From: Ottowia thiooxydans DSM 14619 | Lineage (GTDB): Bacteria; Pseudomonadota; Gammaproteobacteria; Burkholderiales; Burkholderiaceae_C | DNA: 64,000 bases | Direction: 5' to 3' | NCBI RefSeq assembly: GCF_000422885.1 | Contig: NZ_AUGX01000013.1 | Span: 124,001-188,000 of the forward strand | Shown here: positions 3,987 through 11,398 of the stretch, piece after piece | Layout of the letters: the number at the start of each line of letters is the position of its first letter | Numbering within the stretch: position 1 is the stretch's first letter | Made by a program: the position numbers and the translations under genes | The notes under the pieces: model-generated | Databases searched by the model: none | The model's input: the letters and a program-made list of their open reading frames with translations, nothing else | What the model was told of the DNA's origin: nothing

Positions 3987-4029
3987 CCGGACAAAGGCGC
4001 GCGACATGCCGCCTATTTTTTTTGTCCGG
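3987..4029 (+). promoter_or_regulatory. Nested inverted repeat in the leader of the giant protein gene
   Basis: A perfect 9-bp inverted repeat, CCGGACAAA at 3987-3995 and TTTGTCCGG at 4021-4029, encloses a second 4-bp repeat (GGCG at 3996-3999, CGCC at 4010-4013) and a run of T at 4016-4023. As RNA it could form a hairpin at the very 5' end of a transcript started from the possible sigma-54 promoter. The inner hairpin followed by T residues also resembles a weak intrinsic terminator. Role unknown: mRNA stabiliser, attenuator or protein-binding site. Confidence 0.45.
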
Positions 4030-4086
4030 AATCCACGCGTGCCTGGGAGGGTTGCGGGTTCTTGAGAATTTCCAAAAAAGGCACCC

Positions 4087-7000
4087 ATGCAACAACGATT
4101 GCTTACTCTTCCTTTGCCCGATTCACCGGCCTCACCCCAAAGAGCAAATCGATGGCCCGCCCAAGTCGGCGCTGTCTCCGGATGGAGTCGGTGGGTTCGC
4201 GGAGGGCTCCTGCTCGCGGCGCTCGTTGGCGCCTCCAGCGTCTCTGCCCAGAGTTTCCTGGCCAACAAGAAATTTAGCGCCACTGAAGCCTTCTCTGGCA
4301 ACACTGTGGGTCTGACCTTCGACTTGTTCAACTCGCGTTCCGAAACGCTGAGTGCGGGTTTGCAAGATCGGCTGCCTAACACTTCTCCCGCTGGCCAAAT
4401 GTGGTTTGACGTGAGCGACACCCCCACCGTGGCCGGTGTGGTGGGCTGTACCACTGGTACGTTGACGTTCTCCGATTTTCTGGACGCCCCGGCGAACACC
4501 AAGGCACAAACGGTCACCATCACGGGTGCTGCGGTGCCCTCGCAACCCGCAGGGCTGCTAACGCCTAACTGCCAAGTCACCGTGCCGGTGCATATTGGCA
4601 GTGTTGGCACTGACAGCAACGTGACCAACAGCGTGGCGCAAGGTGTTGCCAGTGCAAGCGATGCGAACAGCAATGTGTTCCCATCAGACGCCTTTGCCGC
4701 GTCTCTGCTCATCAGGGCGCCAGTGAACCCGTTGGTGACGGCCAAGTCCTTCACCCCGGCATTGGTCCCTTCGGGCGGAACTTCCTCGCTTCAGATCACG
4801 ATCAATAACAACACCAATCCGGCGGCGGTGGCCAATAACGTGGCCTTTATCGATAACCTGCCCAACGGCGTGACCGCGGCCGGAATCCCGTCCTTTGCCG
4901 GGTGTGGCGCGCCCACCAGCGCGACGATATCCGGCGCCACCACGGTGGTCATGACGGGAGGCACGATCGCAGCGAGGGCGACCTGCACCATCACGATACC
5001 GGTGACGGCGATTGGTGCTGGTCCGCTGCTTAACACCATCCCTGTTGGAGGGGTAACGGCCACTGGCTACAGCAACACCATCGATGCCAACGGTACGCTG
5101 AACGTACGCGATACGATCAAGATGACCAAGGCCATCCAGAGCCCTGCCAACAACCAGTGGCGCACGGATACCTTGCCGACACCTGGCAATCTCTATGGCA
5201 CAGGTTTTACTCAGGGCGAGGCATCGGCCATGGTCAACCAGCCAGTGCCGGTGCGGGTGTATTTCAGCAACCCGTCGGGTTCAGTGCTCACCGGTGGGAA
5301 CCTGACCGACGCATTACCTAACAACATTGTCACAGTGGGTGGCGCGGTAGGCGGTACCTGCGCTTGGGTAAGTACGCCTCCGACCATTCCAGTTGGCGCT
5401 ACCTCGGTCGCTTTTGGCGGTGCCAACAGCTTCAGCGTTCCGGCCGCCAATTTGGGAACAGGCGCGCTCGGTAGTTGCTACGTGGAATTTTGGGTCAAGG
5501 CCACCGCGACATTCTCAAACAATACGAATGCGCTCAGTACATCGAACATCAGTTTCACCGGCGTCAATTCCAATAACATTGAAGCTTCGACATCGGCGAC
5601 GATGAGTGCCACAGGCGCGAGCGGGCCTGGCGGTGCAGGCACCGTCACGGTGGAAAAACGCTTCTATCACCCTGATGGCACCAATCAGACCGGAACCACG
5701 CCTATCCGAGTCGAAAAGGGCCAGCCCTTCTGGATGCGTGTGGCAGTACGCAACACCGTTTATGACACGCCCTATACCAATGGCACTGTGGTGGACACGC
5801 TTCCTTTGGGATTGAAGGTGGTGATGCCCTTGGCTGTGCGTTTGCTGCAAAACCCACCCACAGGCAACCAGTCCCTTCCGGAGGGTTGCGGAAATCAAGT
5901 TGCTAGCTCGGATCCAACGGACGGAACGGTGAGTGTGGCTACTGTGGGCAATCAGGATGTCGTCACCTACAGCGGCTGGACATTACACAGCGGGGCGGGT
6001 GCCAACAACACTGCGGCCAAGAACCAGGGCTGCTTCTACGCCATTCAATTGGTAAGCGATTCTGTGCTTTCCCCGGCCGGTGGCGATTACATCAACACCA
6101 TCGGTGCCAACACGGTGAGCGCTTTCGCTGGTGCACAAGAAGTGACCAACCCAAGTGGGGTCTCAGCCCGAGTTATCGTTCGTTCCGATCTGGATGCTTC
6201 CAAATCGTTTAGTCCCGCCACCATCGGAGCGGCGGGTGGTGCGAAGACGCGCTTGACCATCAGCTTCAACAACAAGAACGGATCCGTCGCGCTGACTAAT
6301 CTAAGTGCGACCGATAACCTGCCTTCGAGCACAGCCTTTGGTGCGTTGACGGTAGCCTCGCCGCCTAACGTGAGCAACACCTGCGCAGGTGTTGTCACTG
6401 CTGCGGCTGGATCGAGCACTGTCTCTATCAGTGGCGGTACGGTTGCTGCCGCTAGCACTTGTTCGCTCTCCGTGGATTTGCTGCACACCGGGGGTAACGG
6501 CGATCCAGGCTCTATCACCAACACGATCACGACCAACGGCATCACGAATGATCAGAATCAGGGCAACACGGAAGCCATCACTGCAAATCTGACCAAGGGC
6601 AGTCTGGGCGTTGGCGTCAACAAGGTCTTCGCGGAGAGTCAAGCGCTCGGAGGCCGTGCCGTCAAACTGACCTTGAACTTCACCACCACGAGTGTCAGTA
6701 CGGTGGCGCAGGACTTGATCACGTTGACGGACAACTTGCCTGCTGGCATGGAGGTGGCTCCCAACGCCAATATTGCGACCACTTGCCAAAAGCAAAATGG
6801 CGATCCAGCCGATGTGACGATCCCACCTGCCCGCAACAATTTCACTATTTCAGGCTTCCGTTTCGCGGCTTATAGCAACGGTGCGGTGCCACACAATAGT
6901 TGCGAGCTTTCGCTCAATGTGATCTTGACCACCACGGGCAACAAGACCAACACCATCCCTAAAGGCGCCATCGGCACCGACATGGGTTCCAGCAACGCGA

Positions 7001-8682
7001 ATCCAACCTCGGCAACCTTGTCAGCCTTGGCCAACACGTCGCTGCAAAAGCAGTTCAATCCCAAACGGGTCGAAGTGGGCTCGCCCAGCACGATGACACT
7101 GACAGTCGTCAACGTGAACACCGAGGCTCGCACCGATTTCGCGCTGACTGACACGCTTCCCTCAGGAATGACTGTGGCCGCTGGCGCGTCCTCGCACACT
7201 TGCGGCAACGGCGTGCTGACCGCCGTGGAAGGCACCGATTCGGTCTCCATCACAGGTGGCGATGTGGGTACCAATGCGAGTTGTACCATCACTGTGCCGG
7301 TGACCGTCATGGTGGCCGATACCTACGTAAATGGGCCGAGCAATTTCAGCGCCAGCAGCTTTATTGACCTGAGTCAGGCGCGCGATGAGTTGGTGGGTTT
7401 CGCCAGCACGTTGCGCGGTACGGTCTTCATCGACCCGGACTTGAACGGTGGCACCACTGGTTTCGTGCCGGCTGCTGATACCGGCCTCGGCGGCATCACC
7501 ATGGAGTTGCCGCGCAACGGCACCGTGATCGCTGCCGCAGTCACCACATCTACTGATCTGGCGCCTGGCGATGCGTTCCCGAATACGGTCAATGGCGCCC
7601 CCGTGAGCTGTACCGTGCCAGCCGGTGGTTTGGCCATAGGCCAGTACCTGTTCTGTAACTTGCCTGCGGGTGAGGACTACAGCGTCCGCAAGACGCAGCC
7701 TAGCGATCACACATCCACCGGAAACAAGGCAGGGACCGCAGGTGGGGCGCCAGACGTACTGGGTGGAACCACTGAGGTCATAGCAGGCATCACGGTGCGC
7801 CCTGAGACAAACGAGGCGGGTTACGACTTTGGCGAGTATCCGCATGGGATCACCAATGTGTCAGGCCGCGTTTATATCGAGACCGGGAACAACCAAACTG
7901 ACGATGGCAACGCCATCGATCCAGGCATGGTGACCAACGTGGCTATTACCTGCACAGGGCCTCTGGACGCTGCAGCTTATTCCAACAGCATGACGACTGG
8001 TGCGGATGGTGCCTATAGCTTCACGGGCATGTTGCCGGGCGCTGAGTGCACTATCACTGAGACGCAACCAGTGGACTACAGCAATGCCTACACACAAACC
8101 GGCCTGACCGGTGAGCCAGGCGTGCCTGGGCCTTTGAATGCGAGTGAGTACGGTCGTGCAGGCGATAGCGTGATTACAGGCATCATCGTGCCGACCGCAG
8201 GTTCGCCATCCAACAACTTCGCGGAGATCCGTCTGGCAGACATGAGCAGCAGCACAGTCTGCACGCCACGTAGTGGCACACCGGGCACCCTGGTGAGCTG
8301 CACGGTCACTTGTACCAACGCGGGGCCCAATAGCGCAGAAAACGCGTTCTGTTCTGTGCTCAATGCTCCTGGTCTGCCAGGTGCTCCGGCTCCAGTGTGT
8401 GCAAATTCACCGCAAGCGCTGCTGGGAGCCGGAGAGTCGCTCAGCTGCACCGTGAGCTTTGCGTTGTCCACCGTCGCTGGTGATATTGCGGTTCGCGGTG
8501 GAACTGGCGCCGACAACGATTCCAATGGCGGGACCCCTCCCGCTGAAGGCAATAATCCGTCGGCCGACGCTGTGACAGCGTTGATCATCGCGCCCGTTCC
8601 GACGCTGGGTGAATTGGCTCTCGTACTGATGGGCCTGTTGTTGGCGGGCTTCGCTTATCGTCAGCAGCGCCGCCGCGGATGA
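4087..8682 (+). CDS. Giant secreted DUF11-type repeat protein with IPTL-CTERM-like tail
   Basis: A 1531-residue predicted surface or exported protein. The N-terminus has an unusually long lead of about 38 residues, then a hydrophobic segment (GGLLLAALVGASSVSA) and a likely cleavage site before Gln55. The body holds four or five beta-rich DUF11-like repeats, each with a lead such as KSFTPALVPSGG, a central DNLP or DTLP motif and a cysteine-bearing CTITIPV end. Two SdrD B-like segments follow (GTVFIDPDLNGG, SGRVYIETGNNQ), then a C-rich module and the tail VPTLGELALVLMGLLL plus arginine-rich end, which resembles the IPTL-CTERM sorting signal. An AAAAGG sequence before 4087 can serve as ribosome site. 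The protein at 39977-44296 shares the C-terminal architecture. Confidence 0.85.
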   Translation: MQQRLLTLPLPDSPASPQRANRWPAQVGAVSGWSRWVRGGLLLAALVGASSVSAQSFLANKKFSATEAFSGNTVGLTFDLFNSRSETLSAGLQDRLPNTSPAGQMWFDVSDTPTVAGVVGCTTGTLTFSDFLDAPANTKAQTVTITGAAVPSQPAGLLTPNCQVTVPVHIGSVGTDSNVTNSVAQGVASASDANSNVFPSDAFAASLLIRAPVNPLVTAKSFTPALVPSGGTSSLQITINNNTNPAAVANNVAFIDNLPNGVTAAGIPSFAGCGAPTSATISGATTVVMTGGTIAARATCTITIPVTAIGAGPLLNTIPVGGVTATGYSNTIDANGTLNVRDTIKMTKAIQSPANNQWRTDTLPTPGNLYGTGFTQGEASAMVNQPVPVRVYFSNPSGSVLTGGNLTDALPNNIVTVGGAVGGTCAWVSTPPTIPVGATSVAFGGANSFSVPAANLGTGALGSCYVEFWVKATATFSNNTNALSTSNISFTGVNSNNIEASTSATMSATGASGPGGAGTVTVEKRFYHPDGTNQTGTTPIRVEKGQPFWMRVAVRNTVYDTPYTNGTVVDTLPLGLKVVMPLAVRLLQNPPTGNQSLPEGCGNQVASSDPTDGTVSVATVGNQDVVTYSGWTLHSGAGANNTAAKNQGCFYAIQLVSDSVLSPAGGDYINTIGANTVSAFAGAQEVTNPSGVSARVIVRSDLDASKSFSPATIGAAGGAKTRLTISFNNKNGSVALTNLSATDNLPSSTAFGALTVASPPNVSNTCAGVVTAAAGSSTVSISGGTVAAASTCSLSVDLLHTGGNGDPGSITNTITTNGITNDQNQGNTEAITANLTKGSLGVGVNKVFAESQALGGRAVKLTLNFTTTSVSTVAQDLITLTDNLPAGMEVAPNANIATTCQKQNGDPADVTIPPARNNFTISGFRFAAYSNGAVPHNSCELSLNVILTTTGNKTNTIPKGAIGTDMGSSNANPTSATLSALANTSLQKQFNPKRVEVGSPSTMTLTVVNVNTEARTDFALTDTLPSGMTVAAGASSHTCGNGVLTAVEGTDSVSITGGDVGTNASCTITVPVTVMVADTYVNGPSNFSASSFIDLSQARDELVGFASTLRGTVFIDPDLNGGTTGFVPAADTGLGGITMELPRNGTVIAAAVTTSTDLAPGDAFPNTVNGAPVSCTVPAGGLAIGQYLFCNLPAGEDYSVRKTQPSDHTSTGNKAGTAGGAPDVLGGTTEVIAGITVRPETNEAGYDFGEYPHGITNVSGRVYIETGNNQTDDGNAIDPGMVTNVAITCTGPLDAAAYSNSMTTGADGAYSFTGMLPGAECTITETQPVDYSNAYTQTGLTGEPGVPGPLNASEYGRAGDSVITGIIVPTAGSPSNNFAEIRLADMSSSTVCTPRSGTPGTLVSCTVTCTNAGPNSAENAFCSVLNAPGLPGAPAPVCANSPQALLGAGESLSCTVSFALSTVAGDIAVRGGTGADNDSNGGTPPAEGNNPSADAVTALIIAPVPTLGELALVLMGLLLAGFAYRQQRRRG

Positions 8683-9084: not shown

Positions 9085-9342
9085 ATGAGTGCTCAACAAC
9101 GTTCCCGCGCCTTCGCAGAAGGCCGGGTCAAGGCTTTGCGCCGCATGAAGCAGCCGATCACGCTGCATCTGCCCGCCAGCGCCACCCCGCGCAACCCCGT
9201 GGCCGCTGCCCTCGCTCGGCGCAGCGTTTCGGCCGCAGCGGGCCGGCACATTCGCAGCCAGGGCGCCCAGCGCCGCGCAGACCGCGTGGCGCTGCAGCAG
9301 GCTCTGCGCAGCCACAAGCACAAGCACAAGGACATGGACTGA
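9085..9342 (+). CDS. Small basic protein, first gene of the AAA-M41 unit
   Basis: An 85-residue protein of unknown family. It is very rich in Arg, Ala and Gln, has no membrane segment or signal peptide, and ends in a His/Lys tail, SHKHKHKDMD. An in-frame ATG at 9019 exists, but it lies before the terminator hairpin at 9039-9066, so the ATG at 9085 is the better start. The stop codon is one base before the ATG of the AAA-peptidase gene, and the Shine-Dalgarno of that gene (AAGGA at 9328-9332) lies inside this frame, which indicates translational coupling. By position it could be an adaptor, a substrate or a regulator of the protease; none of this is shown by sequence. Confidence 0.6.
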   Translation: MSAQQRSRAFAEGRVKALRRMKQPITLHLPASATPRNPVAAALARRSVSAAAGRHIRSQGAQRRADRVALQQALRSHKHKHKDMD

Positions 9343-9343
9343 C

Positions 9344-11398
9344 ATGACTACCGGAAATATTTATCCTCAAACAGCACCCCATCACGCGGTGCTAGAACCG
9401 CATTCGCTCTATCACCCGCATACCGCTTGCGCCAATGACGATGCACCATCATTCACCGTCGGGTTGGCAACTCGTCAGCAAACGCTTTCACTGGTCGCAG
9501 AGCAGCTCAAAACTGAGCTGCTAGGTATTGACGATGTTATTGACCGCGTCATCAACGCCATTCGCGCCTGGTATGTGTTGCCTGGGTTGGTCACCCGTCC
9601 GGTGATCGTTTGCCTCTGGGGGCTGACCGGCACCGGGAAGACCCAGCTCACCCGCCGGTTGGCGCAGTTGCTGGGTTTTTATGACCGCTTTGTGGAAGTC
9701 CAGATGGACGGCTTCAGCAACGGCGCATCACGCCGCAGCACCACCATTTCAGACATGCTGAATGATTCGGGCGTGAGGGAGGGCATGCCGGGCATGTTGG
9801 TGCTGGATGAGTTTCAGCGCTTTCGTACCAAGGACAAGCACGGTGATGACGTGAAGCTGGAGCGCTATCACGATGTCTGGACCTTGCTCTCAGATGGTCG
9901 GTTGCCGCCCGCGTTGAACGCCTTGGGGATAATCGAACGCAAGCTGGCTGAATCACAGTACGAGGCCGAACGGGAGGGCAGTGACGAAGATGAGGCCGCC
10001 GGCAAAACGCGCCACCGCTTCCGTCTCGATGCCTGGGATGCCCAGGATTTGCAGCGCACTCTGAAACTCATGGAACCGCTGGGCGAGATCATGCAGTGGT
10101 CAGCCGCTCAGGTTGAAGCCTTGTTGGCACGATTTCAGCAAGCCAGCGACCAGTGGGAAACCGATTACAGCAAACTGCTGATCTTCGTTTGCGGCAACCT
10201 CGACGAGATGTACCACGAGACTGCGGAGCGTGTGGAAGACTGCGACACTGACGCTGATATCTTTCACCGCCTGACCAGTCGCTTGTCCTTGATCGACGTG
10301 AAGAAAGCGCTGGGATCGCGCTTCAAGCCCGAACAGATCGCCCGGTTGGGTAACACCCATGTGGTCTACCCTTCGTTCAGCAAGGCCACTTATGAAGCCC
10401 TGATCCGCAATCTGTGCCAGCAGTATGTGGACAACATCTCAAGCCAGTGCGGCGTGCGTTTTGCTATCAATCAGGACGTGCACGACGCCTTGTATGCCAA
10501 TGCGGTGTTTCCTGCTCAGGGCACCCGGCCGCTGTTCTCATCTATCCACGCCATCCTAAGCGCCAACCTGGTCCACGCGGCGCTGTGGGTGCTGGAGGGC
10601 GGGCTTCCCCTGGGCCAAATTTTTCCTATCTCTATGGGCGCTGACGGGCAGAGCCTGCAGGTGGAGGGGGCCGGACTCCGCGGAACGGCGCAGACCCGCT
10701 TTCCTGTCGCGCTGGAACTTAGCCGCATCAAGCAGCGTACCAATGCTGACTTCCGCGCCCTGTTGGCGGTGCACGAGGCCGGACACGCCCTGATCTATTG
10801 CTTATTGGTCCGGGTGGCGCCACAAGAGGTCAAGATCAACATCGTGTCCTTCGAGGGCGGCTACAACAGCTTTACAGGCCTGAAGGCCACCACCCGCCAG
10901 AACATGCTCGATATGCTTTGCGTGGGCCTGGCAGGCCGGGCTGCCGAGGCGCTGGTGTTTGGCGACGCTGCCTGCACTACCGGCGCCCAGCACGACCTGC
11001 AGCAAGCCACCGCTGCTGCTGCCAGCTTCATCCGCCACCATGGTTTTGGTGACCGACTCTGCCGTACCGACACCACCGTGGAGGCAGATCAGGGCATCAA
11101 TACCGATGTGGAGCCCAGCAATGCAGCCATCGAAGCCTTGTTGCAGGCCCAATACCAGCATGCCTGTACGCTGCTGGCGCAGCACCGCGTCCTGTTTACG
11201 GAGCTGGTGGATGCACTGGTGGCCAATGGGCTGATCACGCCGCAAGGCATTCAGCAGCTACTGGCGCGCCATCAGATCCCGCTGCGTATGACCTGCGAGC
11301 GCCCACGCGACGACACACTGGTGCTCGAGCCATTTGCTCAACACCTCGCGGCATTTCAGGCCAAGGCAGGCATGGCGCCGGCTCCGGAAAGACCATGA
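9344..11398 (+). CDS. Soluble Clp-type AAA+ ATPase fused to FtsH-type M41 zinc metallopeptidase
   Basis: A 684-residue predicted ATP-dependent protease. The AAA+ module (about 55-420) is of Clp/AAA_2 type: Walker A GLTGTGKT (93-100), Walker B MLVLDE (151-156), sensor-1 Asn285 in LLIFVCGN, a likely arginine finger in LGSRFKPEQIARLG (about 324-336) and a Clp-style sensor-2 motif GTRPL (393-397). An acidic insert lies near 205-225. The C-terminal part (about 455-660) is FtsH-like M41 peptidase: HEAGH at 477-481, GRAAEALVFG (531-540), and TTGAQHDLQQAT with the third zinc ligand Asp551. FtsH normally has N-terminal membrane helices and its own AAA type; here no membrane helix is visible and the ATPase is from another clade. 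Translationally coupled to the 85-residue gene. Confidence 0.85.
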   Translation: MTTGNIYPQTAPHHAVLEPHSLYHPHTACANDDAPSFTVGLATRQQTLSLVAEQLKTELLGIDDVIDRVINAIRAWYVLPGLVTRPVIVCLWGLTGTGKTQLTRRLAQLLGFYDRFVEVQMDGFSNGASRRSTTISDMLNDSGVREGMPGMLVLDEFQRFRTKDKHGDDVKLERYHDVWTLLSDGRLPPALNALGIIERKLAESQYEAEREGSDEDEAAGKTRHRFRLDAWDAQDLQRTLKLMEPLGEIMQWSAAQVEALLARFQQASDQWETDYSKLLIFVCGNLDEMYHETAERVEDCDTDADIFHRLTSRLSLIDVKKALGSRFKPEQIARLGNTHVVYPSFSKATYEALIRNLCQQYVDNISSQCGVRFAINQDVHDALYANAVFPAQGTRPLFSSIHAILSANLVHAALWVLEGGLPLGQIFPISMGADGQSLQVEGAGLRGTAQTRFPVALELSRIKQRTNADFRALLAVHEAGHALIYCLLVRVAPQEVKINIVSFEGGYNSFTGLKATTRQNMLDMLCVGLAGRAAEALVFGDAACTTGAQHDLQQATAAAASFIRHHGFGDRLCRTDTTVEADQGINTDVEPSNAAIEALLQAQYQHACTLLAQHRVLFTELVDALVANGLITPQGIQQLLARHQIPLRMTCERPRDDTLVLEPFAQHLAAFQAKAGMAPAPERP

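Follow-up and report, generated by a model that had tools for sequence, protein, structure and literature searches.

The 64,000-nucleotide stretch of Ottowia thiooxydans DSM 14619 analyzed here (contig NZ_AUGX01000013.1, positions 124,001 to 188,000; referred to below as the window) carries on its forward strand, at 9344..11398, a gene for a protein of 684 residues in which a motor of the type found in the second AAA+ ring (D2) of Clp/Hsp100 proteins is joined to an FtsH-type M41 peptidase within one predicted soluble chain. The combination is real and conserved and, as far as the literature was searched, undescribed. In the textbook pairings, Clp motors are associated with ClpP or HslV chambers, FtsH-type AAA modules with M41, and Lon with its own serine/lysine domain; to our knowledge, the pairing of a Clp motor with M41 is not among the well-known ATP-driven proteases. 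The first-pass annotation of this DNA had called the design absent from the standard bacterial proteases. A search of the literature on M41/FtsH/Clp hybrids, on soluble FtsH and on proteases of huge phages, jumbo phages and megaphages gave no such fusion among the matches listed, with subscription papers and most preprints outside its scope. The queried terms are absent from the main text of PMC7162821, and PMC9020784 was among the papers covered.

The frame is uninterrupted and free of internal stops, and the assignment of the gene draws in addition on Pfam, structure matches, residue conservation and a full-length model. Solved structures match the protein by halves, FtsH at residues ~471-647 and ClpE and ClpC at residues 44-125. 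The C-terminal half is a Peptidase_M41 domain (residues 471-638, 10754..11257, forward strand as are all features of the gene; E-value 3.6e-22, 79.6 bits, the cut-off being 29.9), and the NCBIfam FtsH model TIGR01241, whose cut-off is 600 bits, scores 66, with its best stretch at residues 463-632. A pattern scan of genome contigs that started from the window protein gave at least 79 distinct loci, and the bacterial conservation counts refer to 78 sequences, i.e., the window protein and 77 of these 79 loci, with L073 and L082 left out as fragments. In all 78 the zinc-site residues align, H477, E478 and H481 of HEAGH (residues 477-481, 10772..10786) being invariant together with D551 in GAQHD (10982..10996). 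By the roles known from FtsH, we take HEAGH to provide two zinc ligands and the catalytic Glu, and D551 to be the third zinc ligand. HEAGH, together with TTGAQHDLQQAT and with the Walker A/B, sensor-1 and GTRPL sensor-2 motifs of the motor, had been listed in the first-pass annotation and are all present in the sequence.

The same annotation had seen no membrane segment, and hydropathy bears this out: the highest 19-residue Kyte-Doolittle mean is 1.47 (at residue 473), as against 1.6 or more in 30 of the 31 FtsH controls, and the N-terminal transmembrane segment that marks the FtsH family is absent. Five other proteins of the genome (7.05 Mb) match AAA_2 at E-values no higher than 2.9e-28, all of them with a Walker A of the form GPTG.GKT, and a full FtsH is separately encoded (M41 at 2.1e-72), so that the Clp-M41 protein is an extra and not a replacement; it gives one match within its own genome. 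The third M41-like protein of the genome, encoded on contig C65 (L003, 1243-1920, reverse strand), is a stand-alone protein of 225 residues that has HEAGH and lacks the ATPase; its branch in the M41 tree is very long.

The N-terminal half is a single AAA+ module with a ClpB-D2-like small domain (residues 36-458, 9449..10717), preceded by about 40 residues, and the N domain and D1 ring of Clp/Hsp100 proteins are absent. In hhalign comparisons the ClpB D2 profile spans the whole module and the FtsH profile only its P-loop half, and in the profile votes a ClpB or ClpA model was best in all 84 family rows, the FtsH model in none. The predicted structure of the ATPase alone (mb77a41d0f724; pLDDT 91.8, pTM 0.89) has the overall fold of a Clp/Hsp100 D2 ring with its small domain, and a fold search with it returned Clp/Hsp100/ClpX chains in 50 of 50 among the matches listed. 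The motifs point the same way. Sensor 2 is GTRP (10520..10531; R395, with GTRPL at residues 393-397) and aligns with GARP of ClpB; the pattern G[ATVI]RP occurs in 84/84 family, 13/13 ClpB and 12/12 ClpA rows and in 0/31 FtsH rows. The arginine-finger motif RFKPEQIAR (residues 326-334, 10319..10345; R326 and R334) aligns with HFRPEFLNR of ClpB, a loose form of the FRPE..R finger pattern being found in 84/84 family, 13/13 ClpB, 1/12 ClpA and 0/31 FtsH rows, and the pattern DG[RK] in 68/84, 11/13, 1/12 and 0/31, respectively. Walker A is GLTGTGKT (residues 93-100, 9620..9643; invariant in 47/47 rows of alignment A1, which holds 47 of the 78 bacterial rows), Walker B is LVLDE (9797..9811; LDE at residues 154-156), and sensor 1 is GNLD (residues 284-287, 10193..10204). 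Between the last two lies an extra segment of variable length, about 80-90 residues here, which follows a DGRL motif at the position of the pre-sensor-1 hairpin (9908..10153) and shows in the hhalign comparison as a gap. From Walker B to sensor 1 there are accordingly 123-221 residues in the 83 family rows measured (median 143), as compared with 39 in 13/13 ClpB and 41-45 in 31/31 FtsH rows; in ClpA the pattern was located in 3/12 rows only. In the best ATPase tree the family stands with ClpA/B/V (98*).

Several results weigh against this assignment and its corollaries. By hhalign E-value, FtsH (1.7e-8) does no worse than ClpX (5.5e-8) and HslU (1e-6), the latter two profiles being shallow (3 and 1 sequences). 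The general Pfam AAA family (PF00004) scores above its cut-off (26.5 bits against 21.2, residues 89-169), AAA_2 gives no match to the window protein at E <= 1, and the NCBIfam ClpA and ClpB models match weakly (32.7 of 993 and 31.1 of 1232 bits, at residues 44-112 and 318-412), so that no curated AAA_2, ClpA or ClpB cut-off is reached; the Clp assignment therefore rests on hhalign, fold matches and model votes and not on Pfam. The approximately unbiased (AU) tests on the ATPase reject neither a grouping of the family with FtsH (p 0.253) nor one with ClpX/HslU (p 0.343), the tree being a "quick" one of 27 of the 84 family rows that came with a long-branch warning. Hydropathy stretches of 1.6 or more occur, at internal positions, in 6/84 family rows (3/78 bacterial rows), and the protein at full length was modeled with low overall confidence (pTM 0.48).

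The Pfam AAA match and the AU result for FtsH would fit a protein that diverged from FtsH, shed its membrane anchor and came to resemble Clp motors by convergence, a view that could further appeal to the FtsH-like M41 domain and the identical domain order. We regard it as very improbable, since the FtsH profile covers the P-loop half only where ClpB D2 covers the module, and profile votes, sensor 2, the listed fold matches and the best tree all side with Clp; as the leading interpretation, an anchor-less FtsH was rejected on profile, motif and fold, with the AU test leaving it some room. The kinship of the window ATPase with the D2 ring of ClpB/ClpA rather than with FtsH is thus supported by sequence comparison and modeling, an FtsH kinship being left possible by the AU test. 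The first-pass claim of an ATPase outside the FtsH clade fares accordingly: it is favored by profile votes and fold, the phylogeny agrees in its best tree and leaves the FtsH grouping unrejected, and the Pfam expectation stood for Peptidase_M41 and failed for AAA_2, in whose place the general AAA family appeared.

Conservation extends beyond bacteria. A scan of viral sequences with a mixed profile found 74 loci, 73 of them true relatives, on contigs of up to 548 kb. The viral loci (L122-L131 and L136-L208) came to 60 after exact de-duplication and 58 after clustering at 95%; L208 is a non-member omitted from later counts, L144 was retained, and 57 viral relatives are left after removal of near-copies and L208. 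D155, E156, N285, R326, R334, R395, H477, E478, H481 and D551 are invariant in the 78 bacterial sequences, and among the viral rows N285, R334 and R395 are found in 58/58, D155 and E156 in 57/58 (one gap), D551 in 54/58 (the remaining 4 gapped) and R326 in 35/58 only. Values of dN/dS lie between 0.07 and 0.30 (14 values, from 7 pairs and 2 domains), indicating purifying selection on both domains; with the invariant catalytic residues, these low values argue that the motif set is not due to chance. The same evidence speaks to the idea that the window copy might be a remnant of a phage gene, decaying or already inactive, in an otherwise active family. The window copy does carry an Arg in its pore loop, and in G544, of the same genus, the protease gene is split in two frames (contig C22); against this stand its intact catalytic residues, its open frame and its dN/dS of 0.12-0.22 relative to L004, L010 and L015, and we consider decay of the window copy hardly credible.

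The protease gene has a close neighbor. One base before its ATG lies the stop codon of a small basic open reading frame (ORF) of 85 residues (9085..9342, forward strand), which by tblastn has a match in 71 of the 79 bacterial loci; among the eight loci with no match, at least L060 and L064 begin close to the gene. Its distance to the protease start is within -115 to +184 bases in 68 of 69 measured cases (negative values reflecting uncertain starts), the outlier being 804 in L037, and sixteen copies share 20 invariant columns (alignment A4). Among 150 sampled genomes of the same family, a draw that judging by its handles is the same for both genes, the small ORF was found in 19 and the full-length protease in 16. 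All 16 match the small ORF. In 15 the match lies upstream of the protease gene, on its strand and no more than 1 kb away, and in G379 it is weaker and on a different contig from the protease; the small ORF is present without the protease in G514, G530 and G545, the last a strong match. The small basic ORF is probably an operon partner of the protease, as judged from gene order, and its product a candidate adaptor, substrate or regulator. The product reaches no Pfam cut-off and is matched by no NCBIfam model, and phrog_14104 compares with it at only 0.04-0.27. In 19 viral records it matches two clearly (~5e-8; L144 and L145, probably bacterial or prophage-borne) and one more at 0.0045. A heat-shock promoter was rejected, as sigma-32-like sites were found upstream in 0/78 cases against a shuffled expectation of 0.45. 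Further upstream, at 4087-8682 on the forward strand, the window encodes a repetitive protein of 1531 residues with a C-terminal PTLGEL...RRRG tail, which we take to resemble an IPTL-CTERM sorting signal.

In the mechanism that we propose, six subunits would assemble into two stacked rings, one of M41 domains and one, the only AAA+ ring, of Clp-D2 type, and ATP hydrolysis would thread a protein chain via the pore to the M41 chamber, where zinc would be held by the two His of HExxH and Asp551 and Glu478 would activate water. That the protein is such a self-contained cytosolic ATP-driven zinc protease we consider likely from its architecture, the profile and predicted fold of its motor and its conserved residues, which lends support to the first-pass suggestion of a cytoplasmic zinc-dependent unfoldase-protease in one chain. 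Against it, both the ATPase and the protease activity are inferred from anatomy. Putative pore loop 1 (residues 125-135, 9716..9748), in which an aromatic residue is present in 71/78 bacterial rows (mostly Tyr or Trp at position 130) and in 40/55 viral rows (fragments L129 and L179 omitted), reads SNGASRRSTTI in the window copy, one of the 7 bacterial rows without an aromatic, and Arg at 130 may mean that its own threading is weak. Finally, three non-redundant viral relatives (L202, L204 and L206) keep the ATPase and lack M41, so that remodeling may be a further role of the motor.

Part of this would fit a dedicated, non-processive processing protease or remodeler, in which one or a few partners, the small basic protein possibly among them, would be recognized by the Clp-type ring and passed to M41 for limited cleavage, as opposed to the threading and breakdown of entire proteins. 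The linkage of the small ORF (71/79 loci, 15/16 sampled gene-bearing genomes), the 15/55 viral and 7 bacterial pore loops without an aromatic, and the long variable insert at the pre-sensor-1 hairpin can all be read in that direction. The aromatic is nevertheless retained in most bacterial rows, R334 of the arginine finger and R395 of sensor 2 are invariant, and the rarity of small-ORF matches in the 19 viral records suggests that phage versions work without the small protein, so that limited processing appears unlikely relative to the threading protease described above. To the fullest version of the proposal, namely a new class of AAA+ protease, a soluble one-chain Clp-motor/M41 zinc enzyme of huge-phage origin that is widespread in diverse uncultivated huge phages and was domesticated in Burkholderiales with a dedicated small basic partner to feed or control it, we give an even chance.

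Acidovorax, Comamonas and Roseateles-like bacteria, together with other Burkholderiales, make up most of the bacterial hosts, which include one Cupriavidus pauculus strain (L030); one genome (G539) has two copies of the protease gene, on contigs C64 and C59. The full-length protein is rare in wider samples, occurring in 1/300 genomes of the order, namely that of the window, and in 2/398 of the phylum, where the third-best match (2e-21) is M41-sized. In the ATPase tree the bacterial rows form one clade (100*) within a starred set that holds five phage rows (99*), and a tree with the phage rows as one side was rejected (p 0.0025). This nesting suggests a phage protease domesticated in Burkholderiales, with transfer from huge phages to one lineage as the simplest reading of the sequences, from a biased sampling and with the direction inferred. 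On this account, a protein family of huge phages would have been adopted by one Comamonadaceae-type lineage of Burkholderiales, whose copies would be kept by purifying selection behind the putative partner gene.

Many viral members sit on contigs of more than 200 kb from uncultivated viruses. Terminase was found above cut-off in 3/10 and 10/36 records (13/45 distinct, G399 being shared), a family that also matches 6/14 cellular control genomes; nine terminase-bearing records, some likely near-copies, exceed 200 kb (G400, G402, G404, G549, G550, G557, G561, G569 and G581). A tail-sheath model matches 4/22 viral records, one above cut-off, and as the records may be fragments the absence of marker genes says little. 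In INPHARED no record covers 80% of the window protein (best 31%) or of L128 (best 37%), and nothing matches L148 or L189 at E <= 1e-5; a viral scan from L130 alone returned zero relatives. In PHROGs there is no full-length family, the partial matches being to phrog_4871 (ATP-dependent protease) within the motor and to phrog_30773 (unknown) in the M41 part, and a BFVD fold search with the motor placed phage Clp-subunit-like proteins on top, with none named M41 among the matches listed. No substrate gene is conserved in the phage neighborhoods, where the largest of the other clusters, presumably a RecD/UvrD-type helicase, occurs in 11/57 loci. The viral ATPase relatives without M41 (L202, L203, L204 and L206) have about 440-480 residues, and L202 and L206 adjoin a helicase-like gene. 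The "viral" contigs of L144 and L145 are short and bear a bacterial-like copy along with traces of the small ORF; L144, whose ORFs we take to be PIN-like and phage capsid-like, is probably bacterial DNA beside a prophage. A defense-system identity was rejected, as PADLOC matches to DolB and PDC-M37B are weak and confined to the P-loop half. Plasmids and phage isolates gave 133 and 11 matching records, of which two Pseudomonas megaplasmid proteins, the phi30-3 phage protein and one Paracoccus frame were inspected; the first three were rejected as members for their FtsH layout and hydrophobic N-terminal parts. The Paracoccus versutus frame (plasmid pBEN, L135, ~4001-4522; 798 codons) contains M41 with HECGH; the M41 tree gives it a long branch and does not place it in the family.

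The protein breaks the division between Clp and M41 enzymes within one soluble polypeptide, indicates that motors and peptidases are recombinable modules and that huge phages encode a proteolysis machine, and makes a membrane-free M41 enzyme available for biochemistry, with a partner gene open to testing in culturable Burkholderiales. Among phage systems, the FtsH of Pseudomonas jumbo phages (MIJ3, treated as FtsH-like in PMC6892783; phi30-3, L134) is likewise a phage-encoded M41 ATP-dependent protease; unlike the window family, phi30-3 FtsH has hydrophobic N-terminal stretches (maximum 3.21) and an ATPase that groups with FtsH. The MoxR AAA+/vWA-metallopeptidase pair of jumbo phages (PMC7824862) also ties a phage AAA+ motor to a metallopeptidase; as described in that paper, it comprises two proteins, with a MoxR-type AAA+ and the metallopeptidase on the vWA partner, and no Clp-M41 fusion, and ClpA, ClpX, ClpS and MoxR are reported there from jumbo phages. 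An Ochrobactrum jumbo phage protein, discussed in connection with replication, is matched by HHpred to an ATPase that contains M41 (PMC7139368), and moraphage genes include a "ClpA" orthologue group, listed with the number 24, which may or may not belong here (PMC12363816, PMC12619734). With FtsH and the m-AAA and i-AAA proteases (M41, TIGR01241) the window protein shares an AAA+ module followed by a C-terminal M41 domain with HExxH and a distal Asp in one chain. FtsH differs in its classical AAA domain and in the membrane helices at its N-terminus; the motor of the window protein is of Clp-D2 type, with an Arg in sensor 2, and no membrane segment was found in its N-terminal part. With the D2 rings of ClpB, ClpA, ClpC and Skd3 it shares the whole-module profile, the predicted-fold match, the arginine finger, the GARP sensor 2 and the terminal beta strands. 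ClpA and ClpC dock on ClpP, and the window protein differs from these Hsp100 proteins in its lone AAA+ module without D1 or N domain, its pre-sensor-1 segment and its own C-terminal M41 domain.
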